From Rhodobacter aestuarii (GTDB lineage: Bacteria; Pseudomonadota; Alphaproteobacteria; Rhodobacterales; Rhodobacteraceae): a DNA stretch of 64,000 nucleotides. The stretch is taken from positions 1 to 64,000 of the forward strand of contig NZ_FTOG01000009.1 of the NCBI RefSeq assembly GCF_900156655.1. Reading direction: 5' to 3'. A program made the position numbers and the translations under genes. Positions 35,190-45,235 of the stretch are shown piece by piece. The notes beneath the pieces are model-generated. The model was not told the origin of the DNA. It did no database searches and saw only the letters and a list, made by a program, of their open reading frames with translations. The stretch's first letter is position 1; every line of letters begins with the position of its first letter.

Positions 35190-37292
35190 CTAACCGTTCA
35201 GGTCTTTCAGCAAGCGCCCGTGTTTGCGCACCTCGGCCACCACATCGCCAAAGGTCAACAGCCCCCGCGATTTGAGCGCGGGCAGCAGTTTCAAAAACGC
35301 ATCCGCCGTGGCGACGGTATCGCCAATCGCGGTATGGCGCGCCTCTTCGGGGATGGTGATGCCGAGCCGATGGGTCAGCGCATCAAGGCTATGCACCTCT
35401 GACTGGCCAAACACCACCGCCGAAAGCAGCACCGTATCGAGCACGGGGTTGTCAAAACTCAGCCCAATCGCGCCCTCTTTGCGGCGCAAAAACTCCATAT
35501 CAAACGGGGCGTTATGGGCAATGAGCACGGCGCCTTCGGCAAATTTGTGAAACCGCCGCCCAACATCAATAATATCCGGGGCTTCGGCCACCATCGCATC
35601 GGAAATGCCATGCACCGCGGTCGAAACTTCGGGGATATGGCGGCCCGGATTGACCAAAGTGTCAAACACCTCGGTCTCGACCCGGCGGCCATTCACAATC
35701 CGCACCGCCGCGATTTGCACGATCTCATCGCCTTCGCTGGGCAAGAGCCCGGTGGTCTCGGTGTCAAAGACCACAAAATTCAGGTTCTCCAGCGGCGTCT
35801 TGGCCACCTCGCCCTCGCGCGCGCGGCCAAGCAGGTCAAAGTCATACACCACAGCGCGCGGCACCGGCGGCGGGCGTTTGGACACGCGGCGCGCCTCGCG
35901 CAATGGCAGGCAAATCCGCCCGCGCCCATCGCCCATATTTTCGGGCCAGATTTCAGAGGCATGGGCCGCAATCACCCGCCGCCCGGTGACATCTTCCATC
36001 CCCACTTGCAGCGGATCATCGAGCCAGCTTTCCAGCTCTGAAATCGGCACCTGGGGGCCGCGCCACTCCAGCGCGATCAACGCACCCGCGCCCTCTTCGG
36101 TGATCTCAAGGCGCATATCGCCCCGCTCCGGCCCCAGCCGTGCGACCAGCATGGCCAAAAGCGAGACCATCTCAAACCCTTCAAGCCGCAGCATCAAGGG
36201 CGCGGTCACCGCCATCAGATCGGGGCCCTCTTGCGCGGCGAGGCGCGCGCGCACCGCCTCGCCCAAATCGGAGGCGCGGATCATCGCAAGCGGCCACCAA
36301 TCGGCCCGCATCGCCTCGTGCCGCTCAAAAAGCGTGTGGATCGCCGCGCCAAGGTTGGCCGCTTCGGCCCGCGCCGCGCCACGAAATTGCGCGCGCGCCT
36401 CGGGTTCCGTCGGGCCATCATCGGCAATCAACACGCCAGTTAGCGATTGCAACGCGGCGGCAGGGCGGCGGATGCGGTCAAACAACTCATCCATCAGCGC
36501 TTCGCGGCTCGCATGGGCGCGCATGTCAGACGACACATCGCGCAACGTCAGCACATAGCCCGCGCGGCGGGTCACGTGATGGTCTTCGCCCTCAGAAATA
36601 AGCCGCATCCGCGCGGCAAGCGTTTTGCCATCCGCCACACTGGCACACAAAAGATCCGAGGCGGCATCCGGGTCATCGGTTTCCAAAAGCCGCTCATAGG
36701 CATGGCAAATCGGCGCGCGGTGCAAATAATCAAACACCCGGCGGTCAAGCCCCGGCGCATGGGTCCCGCCCAAAAGATCGGTCGCTTGGCCATTATAGAA
36801 AACAAGCTGGTGCTCGGCGGTGCAAAGCAGCACTCCCACCGGCACGTCGCTCAAGAGCGTTTCCAGCCGCTCTTTTTCCTGCGCAAGACGCGTCGTTTCG
36901 CGTTGCACGGATTCGGTCAGCGCAGAGCGCGTTTCGTTCAAATGCTGGGTGATCGCCGCCGCTGCCGGGGCCAAATCGCCCAAATAGCGCGCGGTTTCGG
37001 CATCAAGCTCGGTTTCCACCTGCGCATGGGTGCGCGCGCGAATGCCCCCCGCCAGCCGCTCAATCGGCTTGGCAAGGTTTTCATCGAACAAGAACCAAAC
37101 AGCGGTGATCAGCCCGGTGATCACAAAGCCCGCCACCACGCCACCAATGATGAACCCATCCAGCGCCTCTGGCTCGCCCAGCTTTTCAAAGCCAAAGACC
37201 AGCCCCGCTACCAGCGCCGCAATATTGCCCAAGGCGAGCGCCGCGAAAAACAAAAACACGCGCAGACGCAGGCTCAGCCGGGCAAGGTTCAT
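35190..37292 (-). CDS. Membrane-anchored PAS-pseudokinase-DnaQ exonuclease fusion
   Basis: A 700-aa protein. Two membrane helices (about 11-35 and 46-69), a HAMP-like coil (70-140) and a PAS-like domain (145-255) lead into a histidine-kinase-like DHp segment (262-325) in which the usual phospho-acceptor His is Asp (D272 in FDRIRRPAA), and a degraded HATPase-like region (330-470). The C-terminal domain (505-670) is a complete DEDDh exonuclease: D510 and E512 (VVFDTETTG), D598 (AHNAPFDMEF), H653 and D658 (HTAIGDTVAT). It should be a signal-responsive nuclease at the inner membrane. It starts 1 bp after the receiver gene stop. Substrate unknown. Confidence 0.85.
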   Translation of the reverse strand: MNLARLSLRLRVFLFFAALALGNIAALVAGLVFGFEKLGEPEALDGFIIGGVVAGFVITGLITAVWFLFDENLAKPIERLAGGIRARTHAQVETELDAETARYLGDLAPAAAAITQHLNETRSALTESVQRETTRLAQEKERLETLLSDVPVGVLLCTAEHQLVFYNGQATDLLGGTHAPGLDRRVFDYLHRAPICHAYERLLETDDPDAASDLLCASVADGKTLAARMRLISEGEDHHVTRRAGYVLTLRDVSSDMRAHASREALMDELFDRIRRPAAALQSLTGVLIADDGPTEPEARAQFRGAARAEAANLGAAIHTLFERHEAMRADWWPLAMIRASDLGEAVRARLAAQEGPDLMAVTAPLMLRLEGFEMVSLLAMLVARLGPERGDMRLEITEEGAGALIALEWRGPQVPISELESWLDDPLQVGMEDVTGRRVIAAHASEIWPENMGDGRGRICLPLREARRVSKRPPPVPRAVVYDFDLLGRAREGEVAKTPLENLNFVVFDTETTGLLPSEGDEIVQIAAVRIVNGRRVETEVFDTLVNPGRHIPEVSTAVHGISDAMVAEAPDIIDVGRRFHKFAEGAVLIAHNAPFDMEFLRRKEGAIGLSFDNPVLDTVLLSAVVFGQSEVHSLDALTHRLGITIPEEARHTAIGDTVATADAFLKLLPALKSRGLLTFGDVVAEVRKHGRLLKDLNG

Positions 37293-37293
37293 C

Positions 37294-37686
37294 TCACGCC
37301 CCCTCTGCGTCCAAAAGCCTATGCACCTCGTCGCGCAGTTCCTTGAGCTCAAAGGGTTTTGCGATGAAGCCATCGGCCCCAAGCGCCAAGCCTTTGCGCC
37401 GCTCCATCGCCGAGCCGCGCGCCGTCATCATCAGGATTTTCACATCTGCCAAGCCGCGATCCGCGCGCACTTCTTGGCAAATCTCATAGCCCGACACCTC
37501 GGGCAGCATCACGTCAAGCAGCACCAAATCGGGCTGTTCGGTGCGAATGCGTTCCAGCGCGCCTCGGCCACTTGCGATCCGGTCATGCTCAAACCCTTCG
37601 CGGCTCATCAGATAGTCCAGCGCAATCGCGATATTGTCTTCATCTTCGACAATCAAAACGCGCCGTTTTCTCCCCCCGTCTGCCAT
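37294..37686 (-). CDS. Stand-alone CheY-like response regulator receiver
   Basis: A 130-aa single-domain receiver with no output domain. Acidic pocket EDED (residues 14-17), phosphorylated D58 (LLDVMLP), switch Thr in MMTARG, and Lys in FIAKPF. The start MADGGRK at 37686 has GGAGG upstream. It lies between a small membrane protein and the pseudokinase-nuclease, 1 bp from the latter, so it probably acts with that protein. No true histidine kinase is in the cluster; the phosphodonor must be elsewhere. Confidence 0.92.
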   Translation of the reverse strand: MADGGRKRRVLIVEDEDNIAIALDYLMSREGFEHDRIASGRGALERIRTEQPDLVLLDVMLPEVSGYEICQEVRADRGLADVKILMMTARGSAMERRKGLALGADGFIAKPFELKELRDEVHRLLDAEGA

Positions 37687-37687
37687 C

Positions 37688-38215
37688 TTATCCTCCCGTG
37701 CAGGCGGCATTTAACCCCGCGTCTGGCATCGGCGCGGGCAACCATTCGCCTGCACTCAAAGACCCATCCGCGTTCACCGCCGCCTCTCCTCCCAGAATGG
37801 CTTGGCGGTGGCCGGTACACTCGTAAGCAACAGTGACAGGCTGGACCGGCCGCCAGCGCGCCACGAGGTAAAGATTGGCCACCACAACATCAGGGGCGGG
37901 CTTGGCCCGGTTGGCTGTATCAAGCGCAACAAAACGGTTCGTCACCGGCCAAATATAGCTCCACGGGCGCCAGGGCATCGATTCAGAGTTGGTTTGCAAC
38001 ACCACCGTGCCTTCGGGCAGGCCGTCGCGGGCTGCCGCGTACCAATTATATTCGCCCCAGATCGTGATGCCGAGCATCGCAAGGCCCGCGGCAGCAGGCA
38101 TGATCCATTTCGGCACCTCAAGGCGTAGCAGCTTGCGCGCGGAATGGCGGATCAAAAAGGCCATCAACCCCGCAAACGCACCTGCGGCGAGCATGATAAT
38201 GAAATCATTGGTCAT
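37688..38215 (-). CDS. Hypothetical two-TM protein of the acetate island
   Basis: A 175-aa protein I do not recognise. Two membrane helices near the N-terminus (about 5-22 and 38-54) precede a periplasmic part with an aromatic patch PWRPWSYIWPVTNRFVALDT and a C-terminal Cys pair (YECTGHRQA ... NAACTGG) that could form a disulfide. It is sandwiched between the DUF294 gene (1-bp gap) and the receiver gene, so probably co-expressed and possibly a membrane partner of the signalling proteins. Confidence 0.65.
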   Translation of the reverse strand: MTNDFIIMLAAGAFAGLMAFLIRHSARKLLRLEVPKWIMPAAAGLAMLGITIWGEYNWYAAARDGLPEGTVVLQTNSESMPWRPWSYIWPVTNRFVALDTANRAKPAPDVVVANLYLVARWRPVQPVTVAYECTGHRQAILGGEAAVNADGSLSAGEWLPAPMPDAGLNAACTGG

Positions 38216-38216
38216 T

Positions 38217-40043
38217 TCAGCTCACCACCGCCTTATTATGGCCCACGGCCGATTGCATCGTGCGCACCACGACAAAGGCATCGCGCAAATGCGCGCGCTC
38301 AAAATCGCTCAGATCAGAGGGTGCGAGGAAGTTATCCGGCGCGCGGCCCGATTTGATCAGCGTGGCTTGGTTTTCCAGCCGCATCGTCGCGATCAGATCA
38401 TAAGCCTCAATCAGATCGCGCGCACCCGAGGCTGAGATCACCCCTGTTGCTTCGGCGGCTTTGAGCCGCGCGCGGGTGTTGGCCTCGGTCAGCTTGCCTT
38501 GCAGCGCATAGACGCGGGCCAAATCGGCGACCGGCACCACGCCGTTCATCTTCAGGTCGATATGATTGCGATGCTCGCCCGAGCGGATCGTGGCAAAGCC
38601 GCGAATAAGGCCCAAAGGCGGAGTATGCTTGAGCGAATTGGAGATCATATGCGCGACGAAAATCGAATTTTTCGCCGCCATGCCAAGCGTTTGCGCATGT
38701 ATCTCTTCAAACATCGCAATGCCGCCACCGCCGATCGGGCGCAGGTCAAACATCACCGAAGCGAGCATCTGCGCCTCGGGGTTGGGCGTGTTGATCCAGC
38801 CGTTGAAATAGTCGCGCCAAACGCGGGCGGGCTGGCACCAGCGCGGGTTCGTCGCCATCATGTCACCGGGGCAATAGACATAGCCGCAGGTGTTGAGCCC
38901 GTCGCAGACGATCTTCGCAAGCGCTTGGAAATATTCCATATCCTCGGGCGTCGCGGCATCATCAATGATCAGGCAATTGTCTTGATCCGAGACCCCGGTT
39001 TGCTCTTGGCGACCTTGCGAGCCGCAGGCAAGCCACAGATACGGCACCGGCGGCGCGCCCAATTCACGCTCCGCCATCACCAGAAGGCGGCGGGTGACCG
39101 CATCGGCGATATCGGTGATCAGCCGCGTCACCACCTCATGGCTATGGTGCCCGCCCACCAATTGGGTCAGCAGTTGCGGAATGCGCGCGGTCACCGCCGC
39201 CATTTCCGATACATTGTCCGCGCTCACCACATCGCGGATCAGCACCGCCGAAGAAACGGCTTGGAAGCGCGTCAGGTCGGTTTGCGTAATCATGCCGACA
39301 AAGCGCCCCTCTTCGATGATCGGCAAATGGCCGATACGACGCTCGAGCATGATGTGCAAAATATCCGAGCCCAAAGCCGTCGGCGGCAGGCTCACCGGAT
39401 CGGGCGTCATCACCGCATTCACAGGCGTCGTGCCCGGCATTTCCCCCGCCAACACCTTATTGGCCAAGTCGCGCACGGTGATGATGCCATGCAGCTTTTT
39501 ATCGCCACCAACCACGCCCAGCGAAGACACATGCGCATCGCGCATCATTTGCGCCGCGCTCACAACCGTCGTTTCCGGCGGGCAAGACAGCGGCTTACGG
39601 GCGATGAGGTCAGCGACCTTTTGCGTGGCAATATCGTTGGAAACCTTTTCGCCGCGCTTGCGGTTGAAGAACCGCTCGAACGAGGGATAGGTCTCGATCA
39701 GCCGTTTGAACGTGGGGGTCGGCAGCACAAGGCAAACCGTCTGCTCGGTCGCTTTGGCCTGCGTCGCGGCCAAGCCGTCCCGCATGATGCCCCGCTCGCC
39801 AAAAGAGTTGCGCGGACCAAGCAGCGAGACCAGCCCGCCATTGCCATCGGTAATTTCAACCGCGCCTTGTTTGATCAGGTAAAGCCCGCCAATCGGCGTT
39901 TGATAAACATAGATCAGCGCTTCGGGGCGGAATTCCATGCGGCGGAAGGAACTGGCCACATCGACCAGCTCGTCACGCGGCAGGGTGTCGTAGGGGTGAA
40001 CCGTTTCGAGAAAGGCGATGATGGCCGCACGATCGGTTTCCAT
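38217..40043 (-). CDS. cNMP-binding / CBS / DUF294 putative nucleotidyltransferase
   Basis: A 608-aa soluble regulator. Domain order: cyclic-nucleotide-binding fold (about 1-115, with IYVYQTPIGGLYLIKQGAVEI and GPRNSFGERGIM), two CBS repeats (about 140-262), a DUF294 nucleotidyltransferase-like domain with G341-S342 and D353/D355 in CGSQGRQEQTGVSDQDN, and a DUF294 C-terminal helical domain (about 460-600). The GS...DxD pattern matches GlnD-type uridylyltransferases, so protein or nucleotide transfer in response to nucleotides is plausible but unproven. It commonly accompanies ActP-like symporters. Confidence 0.9.
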   Translation of the reverse strand: METDRAAIIAFLETVHPYDTLPRDELVDVASSFRRMEFRPEALIYVYQTPIGGLYLIKQGAVEITDGNGGLVSLLGPRNSFGERGIMRDGLAATQAKATEQTVCLVLPTPTFKRLIETYPSFERFFNRKRGEKVSNDIATQKVADLIARKPLSCPPETTVVSAAQMMRDAHVSSLGVVGGDKKLHGIITVRDLANKVLAGEMPGTTPVNAVMTPDPVSLPPTALGSDILHIMLERRIGHLPIIEEGRFVGMITQTDLTRFQAVSSAVLIRDVVSADNVSEMAAVTARIPQLLTQLVGGHHSHEVVTRLITDIADAVTRRLLVMAERELGAPPVPYLWLACGSQGRQEQTGVSDQDNCLIIDDAATPEDMEYFQALAKIVCDGLNTCGYVYCPGDMMATNPRWCQPARVWRDYFNGWINTPNPEAQMLASVMFDLRPIGGGGIAMFEEIHAQTLGMAAKNSIFVAHMISNSLKHTPPLGLIRGFATIRSGEHRNHIDLKMNGVVPVADLARVYALQGKLTEANTRARLKAAEATGVISASGARDLIEAYDLIATMRLENQATLIKSGRAPDNFLAPSDLSDFERAHLRDAFVVVRTMQSAVGHNKAVVS

Positions 40044-40117: not shown

Positions 40118-41875
40118 TTAGTGGCCGGTGGCCGCGCCAGCGCCTTTCGGCACGCGGATCGATTCCACCAGTTCGACCACATTGGCCGGGACCGGTTTGG
40201 TGATCGACGACACGATGAAGGCCACCGCGAAGTTGATCGCCGCACCCACGGCACCGAAGGAGGTCGATTTGATCGAAAGCAGCAGCGGGTCCGCATCCGA
40301 GAAGCTGGCGGTATCGGCGATGAAGAACCAGCCTTTGTGCAAGAAGATGTAGACAACGGTGGTCAACAGACCGGCGAGCATCCCCGCCACAGCGCCCACG
40401 TTGTTCACCTTCTTCGAGAAGATCCCCATCATCAGCGCCGGGAAGATCGAGGCAGCGGCAAGGCCGAAGGCCAGAGCCACGGTTTGCGCCGCAAAGCCCG
40501 GGGGGTTGAGGCCAAGGTAAGTGGCCACAGCAATCGCCACCGCCATCGCGACACGGGCAGCCATAAGCTCGCCTTTTTCCGAGATGTTGGGGTTGATTTG
40601 CCCTTTGATGAGGTCGTGCGACACGGCCGAGGAAATCGCCATCAACAGACCCGCAGCGGTCGACAGAGCGGCCGCAAGACCACCGGCAGCAACAAGCGCG
40701 ATCACCCAGCCCGGCAGACGGGCGATTTCCGGGTTAGCAAGCACGATGATGTCGCGGTTCACGGTCAGTTCGTTGGCATCGGCATTGCCGACATAGGTGA
40801 TCAGGCCGTCGCCGTTTTTGTCGTCGAAGGTCAGCAGGCCGGTTTTGGCCCAGTTGTTGACCCACTCCAGATCAGCGCCCGAAGCATCTTGACCGGCTTC
40901 GATTTCCGCCAGCGACAGAGCTTGGCCGTCAACCCCGTTAGGGTAGAAGGTGTTGATCAGGTTCAGACGCGCCATAGCCCCCACGGCCGGAGCCGTCAGA
41001 TAAAGCAGCGCGATGAAGACCAGCGCCCAGCCCGCCGACGAGCGCGCATCGGCCACTTTCGGCACGGTGAAGAAGCGCACGATCACGTGCGGCAGACCCG
41101 CGGTGCCGATCATCAGCGAAACGGTGAACAAGAACATGTTCAGCGTGGTGTCGGACTGTTCAAGGTAGGATTTGAAGCCCAGATCGGTGACAAGGCCCTC
41201 AAGCGTCGAGAGGATCGGCGCACCGGTCGAAACGTCGTTCGAGAACAGGCCCAGCGCCGGGATCGGGTTGCCGGTCAGGTTGAGCGAGATGAAGACCGCC
41301 GGGATCGTGTAGGCGATGATCAGCACAACATATTGCGCAACCTGCGTGTAGGTGATGCCCTTCATGCCGCCAAGAACGGCATACATGAACACGATCGCCG
41401 CACCGATGAAGAGGCCGGTGGTGTTCGACACTTCCAAGAAGCGCGAGAAGGCGACGCCCACACCGGTCATCTGACCGATCACATAGGTGATCGACGCGAT
41501 GATCAGGCAGACAACGGCCACAGTCCGCGCGGCTTGGCTGTAGAAGCGGTCGCCAATGAATTCCGGCACGGTGAATTTGCCGAATTTGCGCAGGTAAGGC
41601 GCAAGCAGCATGGCGAGCAGCACATAGCCGCCGGTCCAGCCCATCAGATAGGCGGAGGTGTCATAGCCACCAAAGGCGATGATACCAGCCATCGAGATGA
41701 AGGAGGCCGCAGACATCCAGTCCGCACCGGTGGCCATACCGTTGAGCACCGGGTGAACCCCTTGGCCCGCAGCATAGAACTCAGCGGTCGAGCCCGCACG
41801 GGCCCAGATCGCGATACCGATGTAAAGCGCGAAGGTCGCGCCCACAACGATCAGGTTAAGAACGAATTGATCCAT
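40118..41875 (-). CDS. Sodium:solute symporter (ActP-like, VC_2705 subfamily) with EF-hand-like loop
   Basis: A 585-aa inner-membrane SSS-family transporter, probably for acetate or similar monocarboxylates given acs downstream in the same island. About 13 helices; family stretches are AGQGVHPVLNGMATGADWMSAASF, MGWTGGYVLLAMLLAPYLRKFGKFTVPEFIGDRF, YVIGQMTGVGVAFSRFL and LGGMKGITYTQVAQYV. An inserted hydrophilic segment (about 305-385) carries D352-K-N-G-D-G-L-I-T, matching EF-hand positions 1-9. The small DUF4212 subunit is encoded just upstream. Confidence 0.92.
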   Translation of the reverse strand: MDQFVLNLIVVGATFALYIGIAIWARAGSTAEFYAAGQGVHPVLNGMATGADWMSAASFISMAGIIAFGGYDTSAYLMGWTGGYVLLAMLLAPYLRKFGKFTVPEFIGDRFYSQAARTVAVVCLIIASITYVIGQMTGVGVAFSRFLEVSNTTGLFIGAAIVFMYAVLGGMKGITYTQVAQYVVLIIAYTIPAVFISLNLTGNPIPALGLFSNDVSTGAPILSTLEGLVTDLGFKSYLEQSDTTLNMFLFTVSLMIGTAGLPHVIVRFFTVPKVADARSSAGWALVFIALLYLTAPAVGAMARLNLINTFYPNGVDGQALSLAEIEAGQDASGADLEWVNNWAKTGLLTFDDKNGDGLITYVGNADANELTVNRDIIVLANPEIARLPGWVIALVAAGGLAAALSTAAGLLMAISSAVSHDLIKGQINPNISEKGELMAARVAMAVAIAVATYLGLNPPGFAAQTVALAFGLAAASIFPALMMGIFSKKVNNVGAVAGMLAGLLTTVVYIFLHKGWFFIADTASFSDADPLLLSIKSTSFGAVGAAINFAVAFIVSSITKPVPANVVELVESIRVPKGAGAATGH

Positions 41876-41890: not shown

Positions 41891-42148
41891 TTACTCATCC
41901 ACGCCGTGTTCACGGTCGAGTTTGTTCATGCGGAACGCGTAAGCGAAGATCAGCACGAGGAACACGAGGATCGAGCCTTGCTGGGCGAACCAGAAGCCAA
42001 GGTCGGTGCCGCCAATACCGATGCCCGCGAGCATCGGGCGCAGCAAGATGCCGAAGCCGAACGAACAGACGAACCAGATCACCAGAAAGACCAAGATCGT
42101 CTGGATGTTCGCTTTCCAATAGGCATTGGACGAAGAATTGTCCGCCAT
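41891..42148 (-). CDS. DUF4212 small subunit of sodium:solute symporter
   Basis: An 85-aa protein with two membrane helices (about 16-38 and 53-72) separated by GGTDLGFWFAQQGS. This matches DUF4212, the small protein paired with VC_2705-type SSS transporters (analogous to YjcH for ActP). The start NSSSNAYWKANIQ region is typical. It ends 15 bp before the symporter start. Confidence 0.9.
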   Translation of the reverse strand: MADNSSSNAYWKANIQTILVFLVIWFVCSFGFGILLRPMLAGIGIGGTDLGFWFAQQGSILVFLVLIFAYAFRMNKLDREHGVDE

Positions 42149-42212: not shown

Positions 42213-42896
42213 TCAGGCCGAGACGCGTGTCACGATCGACCCAAGGTCAGAGGCAACCGTCGCGATGGGTGCCATCGCATCGACCGTCTCCAAAACGCCG
42301 AGCGCCCGATAATGGGCAATCAGCGGCGCCGTTTGCGCGTGGTAGGCCTCCAACCTGGCCCGCGCCGTCTCGGCATTATCGTCAGCGCGGCGTTTGAACA
42401 CCGTGCCGCCGCATTTGTCACAAGTGCCCGGCTCCACGGGCAGCTTGAATTGATCGTGATAGCCCTCGCTGCAAATGGCGCAGGTATAGCGCCCAGCCAC
42501 GCGGGCAATCATCGCCGCATCATCGACTTCTAGGCTGATCGCGGCGGTCACTCCCTGCCCCGCAGCGGCCAGCAAATCGTCAAGAGCGGCGGCCTGCCCC
42601 GCAGTGCGGGGGAAGCCATCCAAAATCACACCGGCTTTCACATCCGGCGCGGCCATGCGGTCTTGCAAGATCGCGAGCACAATCTCGTCACTGACAAGCC
42701 CGCCCGCTTCCATCACCGCTTTCGCCGCAAGGCCCGCGGGCGTGCCCGCGGCCACCGCCGCGCGCAACAAATCCCCGGTGGACAGCTGGATCAGGCCAAA
42801 GCGCTGTTCCAGCATCCGCGCCTGCGTGCCCTTGCCCGCGCCCGGAGGCCCGAGCAAGATCAGCACGGCGGGTTTGGTGGTCGCCTGTGCGTCCAC
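42213..42896 (-). CDS. adk: Adenylate kinase (zinc-LID type), acs-linked paralogue
   Basis: A 227-aa enzyme that converts AMP + ATP to 2 ADP. P-loop GPPGAGKGT (16-24), AMP site STGDLLRAAV, ILDGFPRT, and a zinc-type LID with C139, C142, C159 and C162. In most alphaproteobacteria the housekeeping adk lies in the ribosomal-protein operon, so this is probably a second copy. It starts 4 bp after the acs stop; Acs makes AMP, so coupling would recycle it. Confidence 0.92.
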   Translation of the reverse strand: MDAQATTKPAVLILLGPPGAGKGTQARMLEQRFGLIQLSTGDLLRAAVAAGTPAGLAAKAVMEAGGLVSDEIVLAILQDRMAAPDVKAGVILDGFPRTAGQAAALDDLLAAAGQGVTAAISLEVDDAAMIARVAGRYTCAICSEGYHDQFKLPVEPGTCDKCGGTVFKRRADDNAETARARLEAYHAQTAPLIAHYRALGVLETVDAMAPIATVASDLGSIVTRVSA

Positions 42897-42900
42897 CGGA

Positions 42901-44871
42901 TCAGCCCCGGTTCATACGGTTGTCGATCAGCTCTTGCACCACCGAGGGATCGGCCAAGGTGGAGATGTCGCCAAGCGCGCCATAGTCGTTCTCGGCGATC
43001 TTGCGCAGAATGCGGCGCATGATCTTGCCCGAGCGGGTCTTCGGCAGGCCCGGCGCCCATTGAATGAGATCCGGCGAGGCAATCGGGCCGATTTCGGTGC
43101 GGACCCATTTCACCAGATCTTTGCGCAGCTCATCGCTCGGTTCGACGCCGTTCATCAGCGTGACATAGGCGTAGATGCCTTGGCCCTTGATGTCGTGCGG
43201 GTAGCCCACCACGGCGGCCTCGGCCACTTGCTGATGCGCCACCAGCGCGCTTTCGACCTCGGCGGTGCCCATACGGTGGCCCGAGACGTTGATCACGTCA
43301 TCGACGCGGCCGGTGATCCAGTAGTAGCCGTCTTTGTCGCGGCGGCAGCCGTCCCCGGTGAAGTAGTAGCCGCGATATTGGCCAAAGTAGGTTTCTTGGA
43401 ACCGGTCATGGTCGCCCCAAACGGTGCGCATTTGGCCCGGCCAGCTATCGGAGATGCACAGCACGCCTTCGCATTCGACTTCGCCAATCCGCACAGCGGT
43501 TTGCGGGTCCAGCACGACCGGCTTCACGCCAAAGAACGGGTTGGTGGCCGAGCCCGGCTTGGTCGCCGTGGCGCCCGGCAGCGGCGTCAGCATGTGGCCG
43601 CCGGTTTCGGTCTGCCAGAAGGTATCGACGATCGGGCATTTGCCTTTGCCGACATAGGTATCATACCAAGTCCACGCCTCGGGGTTGATCGGTTCGCCCA
43701 CCGAGCCCAGCACTTTGATGCTGGAAAGGTCATATTTCTCAACCCATTCCGGACCTTGGCCCATCAGCGCGCGGATCGCGGTCGGCGCGGTGTAGAACTG
43801 GTTCACCTTATGCTTTTCACACACGGCCCAGAACCGGCCCGCATCCGGGTAAGTCGGCACGCCTTCGAACATCACCGTGGTCGCACCATTCGCGAGCGGC
43901 CCGTAGATGATGTAGCTGTGACCGGTGACCCACCCCACGTCGGCGGTGCACCAGAACACATCGCCGTCATGGTAGTCGAAGGTGTATTGATGCGTCATCG
44001 CGGCATAAACGAGATAGCCGCCGGTCGTGTGCACCACGCCCTTCGGTTTGCCGGTCGAGCCCGAGGTGTAGAGGATGAACAGCGGATCTTCGGCGTTCAT
44101 CGGGCGCGGCGGGCATTCGGGCGAGACGTGATCCATGAGGTAGAGCAGGTCAACGTCGCGGCCATGCACCCACGAAATTTGGTCATTGGTGCGTTTCACC
44201 ACCAAGCAGCGCACCTTGTCCGAGCAGTGCAGCAGCGCGGCATCGGTGTTGGCTTTGAGCGGCGTGCGGCGCCCCCCGCGCGGCGCGGTGTCAGCGGTGA
44301 TCACCAGCTTCGCGTTACAGTCGTTGATCCGGTTCGCCAGCGCGTCCGGCGAGAAACCCGCGAACACGATCGAGTGGATCGCACCGATCCGCGCGCAAGC
44401 CAGCATCGCATAGGCGGCTTCGGGGATCATCGGCAGGTAGATCACAACCCGGTCGCCGCGCATGATGCCTTGGCTGAGCAGCACGTTCGCCATCCGGTTC
44501 ACCTTCTCGGACAGCTCCTTGTAGGTGATGTGCTGGGCGGGCTCATTCGGATCATCGGGTTCAAAGATGATCGCGGTTTGCAGCGAGCGGTCTTTCAAGT
44601 GGCGGTCGATGCAGTTCACCGAGGCGTTCAGCACGCCATCTTCGAACCATTTGATCGAGACTTTGCCAAAGGTGAAATCGGTGTTTTTGACCTTGGTGTA
44701 AGGCGTCATCCAATCAAGACGCTTGCCTTCGCGGGCCCAGAAGGCGTCCGGGTTCTCGATCGATTCCCGATACATCTCCAGGTATTTCTGATGATCCGCA
44801 TGCGCGTTCTCGAACCCTGCCGGAACCTCGCGCATTTCGGGCGCGGTGATGGGCTGCGTCTGGGTGTTCAT
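42901..44871 (-). CDS. acs: Acetyl-CoA synthetase (AMP-forming)
   Basis: A 656-aa cytosolic enzyme making acetyl-CoA from acetate, ATP and CoA. ANL motifs: [76 protein letters not shown] and the C-terminal [14 protein letters not shown] with the catalytic, acetylatable lysine. Length equals that of E. coli Acs. The start MNTQTQPI at 44871 follows GGAGAG. It is followed at once by adk and then by the symporter pair. Confidence 0.97.
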
Positions 44872-45235
44872 GGCCTCTCCTCCCAAGATGATGCGGCCCG
44901 TGGCCGCCGTCTGCCGCAAGGTCACTCCCGCGGCGCTCTACCCCACACACACTGTAAACCAATTGTGAGCGTTCATGTAAGCCCCTACGTGCAATGACTT
45001 TTTTTGTAAATTTATTGACTGATAAGGCGATAAGCTTGTAAATTTTTTGAAAAGGCACAGAGATTTGGCATTGCGTTTCAACCCTTTGCCGTTTCGCCCT
45101 TCACGGGTGGCAAAAGTCGATAGCGCAACCGCTGCGATGCAGCACTGCATGTGCGGCAAACACAGTATCGCAGCCCCCGGCCAACCCCTATGGGGTGCGT
45201 GGCGGTTTTCCAGCAGATTCGCAGGTGATTCGGCC
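44872..45235 (-). promoter_or_regulatory. acs upstream region with a 15-bp direct repeat
   Basis: A 364-bp gap between the sulP stop and the acs start. An AT-rich island (44995-45055) carries two copies of TTGTAAATTT(A/T)TTGA at 45004-45018 and 45036-45050, in the same orientation with starts 32 bp apart, about three helical turns. That spacing would place two bound regulators on the same DNA face. Short-chain acyl-CoA regulators or a response regulator are candidates. No gene or tRNA seen. Confidence 0.55.
45004..45050. repeat. Tandem direct repeats TTGTAAATTTWTTGA
   Basis: Two 15-bp copies differing at one position (A or T at base 11), with starts 32 bp apart. They are the most AT-rich bases for kilobases around and lie about 130-180 bp before the acs ATG. 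Confidence 0.7.

Follow-up and report, generated by a model that had tools for sequence, protein, structure and literature searches.

Receiver domains are best known for their roles in transcription, second messengers and partner switching, and CbrB is an example of the transcriptional action found in systems with SLC5/STAC kinases. In Caulobacter, DivL carries a DHp-CA module that lacks the acceptor histidine and binds phosphorylated DivK (DivK~P). The substitution R553A, three positions after the acceptor, disrupts DivK binding, and lineages without DivK are often also without the DHp-CA of DivL (PMC4211667). In Pseudomonas putida, pp_0354/pp_0353 comprise an RNase_T protein in an operon with a CBS protein; ErdR binds the promoter, and the pair belongs to the MxtR/ErdR regulon (PMC9927547). 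There, pp_0353 is required for normal growth on pyruvate, not acetate, and a DNA-consumption test is negative; the authors propose mRNA as the substrate and regard the role of pp_0353 in pyruvate use as unclear (PMC9927547).

The window analysed here, meaning the whole stretch of 64,000 nucleotides from contig NZ_FTOG01000009.1 of Rhodobacter aestuarii, encodes a protein of 700 amino acids that is real and conserved and is probably a receiver-controlled membrane exonuclease. Like DivL, it consists of a membrane part, a PAS domain and a DHp-CA module without the acceptor histidine, with an arginine at acceptor +3 (R553 in DivL, R275 here). The DivL module is often lost together with its receiver, and here the DHp-CA co-occurs with a single-domain receiver (REC). 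Unlike DivL, which controls CckA, the protein has a fused DEDDh exonuclease as its output; it carries Asp or Glu in place of Tyr at the acceptor position, its N-box and D-box are replaced, and it lies in a different operon (PMC4211667). We put this likeness forward as one of apparent working principle, not of orthology. Among the papers listed in a literature search of open-licence texts, none was seen to describe a kinase-like exonuclease, which is not proof of absence.

The pseudokinase-exonuclease gene occupies positions 35190 to 37292 and, like all window features given below with coordinates, lies on the minus strand; its domains were assigned from the translation, Pfam and an AlphaFold model. 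Two predicted transmembrane (TM) helices (residues 10-70, 37083-37265) are followed by a HAMP-like or coiled linker (residues 71-140, 36873-37082). The hydropathy profile contains hydrophobic segments at about residues 3-36 and 43-71, with a peak KD of 2.3-2.4, and one weak window in a CA helix; the corresponding model helices span residues 8-38 and 41-89. The start is sound because in 65 of 80 relatives (the best 80 of 247) the alignment begins at residue 1-6, and because the upstream TTG at 37382 falls within the REC gene, which rules out a mis-set start. The original prediction holds as an observation. In the same set, the closest relative is found in Rhodobacter sp. TJ_12 (93%). That prediction had also proposed a HAMP-PAS-DHp-HATPase scaffold, of which the PAS and DHp/CA folds are borne out by structure, as described below. 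Pfam HAMP gave no match in the window protein; the linker, mostly helical in the model, has P76 and a GDLA-like motif, GDLAPA, from which a HAMP domain is plausible by eye.

The C-terminal DEDDh 3'-5' exonuclease domain (residues 505-690, 35223-35780) matches Pfam RNase_T (PF00929) at residues 507-666 with E 3.6e-37 and resembles PolC/DnaQ structures with Z 20-23.6. Its catalytic residues D510, E512, D598, H653 and D658 are all present in the translation, as originally proposed, and complete the DEDDh set. Across the best 80 of 247 relatives, 78-79 conserve these residues, and the five-residue set (DEDHD) is complete in 193 of 194 homologous loci, the exception being an interrupted frame (L025). 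The fold and catalytic residues are those of the DnaQ/PolC/RNase T exonucleases; unlike these, the 700-aa protein is predicted to be membrane-tethered and to carry a sensor and a pseudokinase. When the whole chain was compared with known structures, the 50 matches listed were nucleic-acid enzymes alone, either exonucleases themselves or chains of polymerases and helicases that contain an exonuclease, and residues 71-478 were therefore folded and searched separately.

Predicted from 42 sequences, residues 71-478 reached a pLDDT of 82.4, and the AlphaFold model consists of helices, a PAS domain, a two-helix hairpin (residues 253-289 and 297-329) and a CA-type domain. Sensor kinases head the Foldseek matches to the PDB (9a5d, E 2.4e-16; 4i5s, E 2.0e-13), so that the comparison with HisKA/HATPase proposed at the outset returned histidine kinases. 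The PAS domain (residues 141-252, 36537-36872), for which Pfam matches fall under the cut-off, superimposes on that of PpsR with Z 12.5 and rmsd 2.7 over 109 residues. The degenerate CA/HATPase-like domain (residues 337-470, 35883-36284) matches the CA part of PrrB with Z 13.5 and rmsd 2.9 over 131 residues. Compared with DivL (4q20), residues 71-478 give Z 13.4 and rmsd 12.6, and a large rmsd in whole-kinase matches is as expected if the modelled domain angles differ.

The pseudo-DHp hairpin (residues 253-330, 36303-36536), assigned from predicted structure, structure comparison and profile alignment, contains D272 (codon 36477-36479) within LFDRIRRPAAAL. By ungapped counting from the first aligned residue, D272 falls on DivL 550 and HK853 260, whose acceptor status is taken from PMC4211667 and from a structure entry title, respectively. 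A structure-independent profile alignment (hhalign) with transporter-fused kinases, using 30 of 31 kinase loci picked by the pattern SHE[LM]RTP, covers 220 columns with a probability of 96.7 and E 3.5e-10. In it, D272 takes the column of the acceptor histidine, R385 that of the N-box Asn and W410 that of the D-box Asp; the G2 box (GxGLGL) is absent. This confirms the position assigned to D272 in the original prediction and extends its finding of no convincing N-box to the D-box and G2 box. A Pfam scan of the window protein that allowed E values up to 1 found neither HisKA nor HATPase, and neither is among the 12 families listed for 44 aligned members at E up to 0.1.

In the best 80 of 247 relatives, residue 272 is Asp in 76, Glu in three and Ala in one, while R275 is present in all 80 and P277 in 79. 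None of 147 aligned long homologues has a histidine at this position, and W410 occupies the D-box place in 133 of 134 REC-linked long homologues; the module is thus a conserved pseudokinase and not a freshly decayed kinase. The earlier wording that the protein has lost its histidine holds for the absence of the residue, and a recent loss is contradicted by the same count. On alignment grounds, the 700-aa protein is an old, conserved pseudokinase in which the predicted DHp-CA fold persists and the acceptor His, N-box, D-box and G2 box are gone.

Directly upstream lies a single-domain receiver (37294-37710, PF00072) with D66, T96 and K118 intact; one base separates its stop from the exonuclease start. 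A full-length profile search at E 1e-40 matched at least 186 of 394 Rhodobacteraceae genomes, and two forms occur in this family: a long form of about 700 aa, and a short form, TM-PAS-exonuclease without DHp-CA, with open frames mostly of 470-500 aa. Since the best 80 of 247 relatives were kept, that set consists of long forms by choice. Further loci comprised 40 neighbourhoods selected to sample short forms, two others that turned out to be short (L200, L204) and 36 selected to sample long or divergent forms; at least 15 long forms among the matches listed were left out of the locus set. The search for REC extended to 2,500 bases upstream of the exonuclease gene. The 194 loci, some of them redundant, divide into 133 long forms with REC directly upstream, 12 long forms without adjacent REC, 45 short forms without REC, two broken frames and two with too little upstream sequence (L016, scored without REC, and L081, scored with it). 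REC is therefore absent from all 45 true short forms. The two broken frames (L025, L070), tallied as short with REC, belong to long genes whose reading frame is interrupted, either through assembly error or in reality; one of them comes from Rhodobacter maris JA276.

The DHp is shortened (occupancy 0.57-0.67) in nine of the 12 long forms that lack an adjacent REC; of the other three, L182 and L201 have lost R275, and L087 has a normal motif. In L087, a REC 50% identical to that of the window lies beside the kinase within the same cluster. L179 retains R275 although REC is absent and the DHp is shortened. Because some loci represent one gene taken twice, a non-identical set of 177 was used, in which 117 loci with REC carry the motif and one does not, and one locus without REC carries the motif and 56 do not. 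In aligned long homologues with REC, R275, W410 and W449 are each found in 133 of 134; without REC, they are found in 3, 5 and 2 of 13, respectively, the 13 including L016, whose motif is normal and whose upstream sequence is missing. Ten REC-less long forms (L087 and L201 left out) were compared with 22 divergent long forms that have REC and are similarly close to the window protein in the exonuclease domain (identity 0.63 vs 0.61). With gaps counted as mismatches, their DHp identity to the window protein is 0.14 and 0.29, respectively; TM, HAMP and PAS identity is not lower in the REC-less forms. Among the 133 REC-linked long forms, the receiver retains its D/T(S)/K residues in 131 and residue 272 is Asp or Glu in 129. 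Ala occurs at residue 272 in four rows, two of which (L073, L123) share motif and REC score and are probably one gene.

On a FastTree phylogeny, which carries a long-branch warning, REC changes nine times and the motif eight times. Of six supported independent pairs, four to five agree, none oppose and one to two are undecided (p 0.0625-0.125, median 0.0625). The covariation of REC and module is suggestive, not conclusive, the independent evolutionary events being few. As exceptions, L190 keeps REC with a degenerate motif, and L274, outside the non-identical set, has REC directly upstream and Ser at the R275 place (LDKFSSP, by eye). In L171, a REC gene without phosphorylation residues is present and the pseudo-DHp keeps E272 and R275. 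Residue covariation between REC and the exonuclease protein was uninformative, the top pairs lying largely at poorly aligned ends: the DHp held 4 of the top 20 pairs (2.4 expected) and 27 of the top 200 (23.9 expected), and the CA 70 of the top 200 (44.4 expected). Mirror-tree partial correlations (DHp 0.30, CA 0.27, TM 0.24, PAS 0.23, HAMP 0.14) differ too little to support an argument. The existence of short forms without DHp-CA shows that the module is not needed for the nuclease itself.

The exonuclease gene is the last in a minus-strand run. Upstream of REC, this run holds a 175-aa protein (37688-38215) conserved in Rhodobacteraceae operons, with no family over cut-off in profile searches, and a cNMP-binding/CBS/DUF294 nucleotidyltransferase-like protein assigned by Pfam (38217-40043). 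These are preceded by a VC_2705-family sodium/solute symporter (40118-41875; TIGR03648, 811.7 bits) and its DUF4212 small subunit (41891-42148, from profile matches). The setting is completed by adenylate kinase (adk, 42213-42896; TIGR01351, 230.3 bits, cut-off 168) and the acetate--CoA ligase AcsA (42901-44925; TIGR02188, 1025 bits, cut-off 725), whose gene opens the run. The 175-aa protein is membrane-looking and lies between DUF294 and exonuclease in both long- and short-form Rhodobacteraceae loci. In L089, L212 and L127-L166, the operon with the 175-aa protein, DUF294 and symporter is kept, and DHp-CA and REC are both absent.

A probable phosphodonor for this exonuclease-side REC is a transporter-fused kinase. 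In the distant clusters L208, L209, L273 and L274, REC and the pseudokinase-exonuclease are followed by a kinase of about 900 aa; the same order in L210 is cut by the contig end, and in L207/L319 REC lies beside the kinase on the opposite strand. The L274 cluster also holds AcsA-like and DUF294 genes. In two distant relatives with the short form, L211 and L271, the gene that follows REC directly is that of the kinase. The three kinases scanned (L274, L211 and window genome) exceed the Pfam HisKA and HATPase cut-offs. For the symporter family SSF, the L211 kinase scores above the cut-off (31.1 bits vs 22.8), and the Pfam scan reported no SSF match for the window-genome or L274 kinase; both align with the L211 kinase over almost its full length, that of the window genome being a 44% full-length homologue. 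With its symporter-like part and intact HisKA-HATPase, the probable phosphodonor resembles the SLC5/STAC kinases CrbS, CbrA and RpuS, except that the described members act on transcription (PMC5715377).

The kinase was found in 64 of 68 chosen genomes. In all 24 Rhodobacteraceae kinase loci, drawn from the best 30 matches and from long- and short-form genomes, it has its own REC at a separate locus, and the loss therefore concerns the exonuclease-side REC specifically. In the window genome, contig C6 carries the kinase together with its own 129-aa receiver and a ScfR/RamB-type fatty-acid regulator, so that its pairing with the window REC is inferred from the distant clusters. The regulator at this locus (L288, 3905-8757) has a ScfRs domain over cut-off and a RamB match under it, and is of acetate/propionate type.

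The features of DivL, namely the missing histidine, the docking arginine and the joint loss with a receiver, are thus repeated here with a C-terminal enzyme, and we therefore propose a path from kinase to REC to pseudo-DHp to exonuclease. In this DivL-like reversed arrangement, to which we assign a probability of roughly 0.57, the SLC5-type transporter-fused histidine kinase would phosphorylate the single-domain REC, and REC~P (or REC) would dock on the pseudo-DHp around D272/R275. Docked REC, together with the PAS/TM part, would then change the activity, oligomer state or access of the C-terminal exonuclease, in a direction and on a substrate (our guess is RNA) that we infer. The dead DHp-CA would in this way be the input port of a membrane-anchored DEDDh exonuclease serving acetate or pyruvate use. 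The original prediction had offered two readings, transmission of PAS or membrane signals to the nuclease, or binding of the neighbouring receiver without phosphorylating it. The second gains indirect support from the way REC presence tracks DHp-CA and R275/W410/W449 and from the gene order with the kinase, which suggests that REC may dock there to control the exonuclease. The probable cognate kinase, the covariation, the short form and the acetate/pyruvate setting go beyond that prediction.

Other readings give the module a different role. If DHp-CA were a dimerising spacer only, TM and PAS signals alone would control the exonuclease and REC would serve another purpose; in its favour, the 45 short forms scanned keep TM and PAS (occupancy >=0.92 and >=0.86), yet R275, W410 and W449 would be superfluous in a spacer, and there would be no reason for it to decay where REC is missing; we regard this reading as unlikely. 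Alternatively, the pseudo-DHp could contact and tune the transporter-fused kinase in the manner of RetS, with REC a substrate of the kinase only and the nuclease a passenger output. The reported GacS-RetS interplay is a precedent, and the kinase directly follows the exonuclease in the distant long-form clusters; against this, genomes with the short form, which lack the module, still carry the kinase, and it is REC that goes missing with the module. We therefore consider such tuning rather improbable. The acidic residue at the acceptor place (129 of 133) might suggest an active kinase phosphorylated on Asp, a reading with very little probability that we reject on motifs: the N-box Asn is replaced (R385), there is no G2 box, and Trp (W410) stands in the D-box place in 133 of 134. 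That the protein is a normal epsilon subunit of DNA polymerase III carrying an unusual N-terminal extension is scarcely credible, since the DnaQ/PolC-type domain scores only 112.6 bits with TIGR01406 against a cut-off of 222.7, and the genome has its own separate DnaQ (266.8 bits) on contig C14.

The DUF294 gene offers a further comparison. Of 51 loci outside Rhodobacteraceae (L215-L242, L248-L270), 36 have a DEDDh-like exonuclease domain in the 1.5 kb flanking DUF294, 32 of them on the same strand, and the pairing is therefore wide. In the flanks of the other 15, the TM-PAS-type N-terminus is partly matched in three (L227, L255, L267). The membrane-pseudokinase N-terminus occurs across part of the phylum. 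The P. putida pair pp_0353/pp_0354 (MxtR/ErdR = CrbS/CrbR regulon) is alike in its RNase_T and CBS operon and its link to actP and a transporter-fused kinase; unlike here, the available text reports no membrane or kinase-like part, and the known control is transcriptional (PMC9927547). One could speculate from the gene pairing that the DUF294 protein attaches nucleotides to a target, either RNA or protein, and that the REC-gated exonuclease removes them according to acetate or pyruvate supply, as part of a full two-component pathway ending in nucleolysis and not in transcription; we think this extension quite doubtful.

If the REC-docking reading is true, two-component signalling would have a fast post-transcriptional branch, in which a receiver docked on a dead kinase switches a nuclease. 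It would also suggest that the DivL-type reversal is a design used more than once, each time with an unrelated effector. Furthermore, the proposal gives testable content to pp_0353, a putative nuclease linked to pyruvate use.
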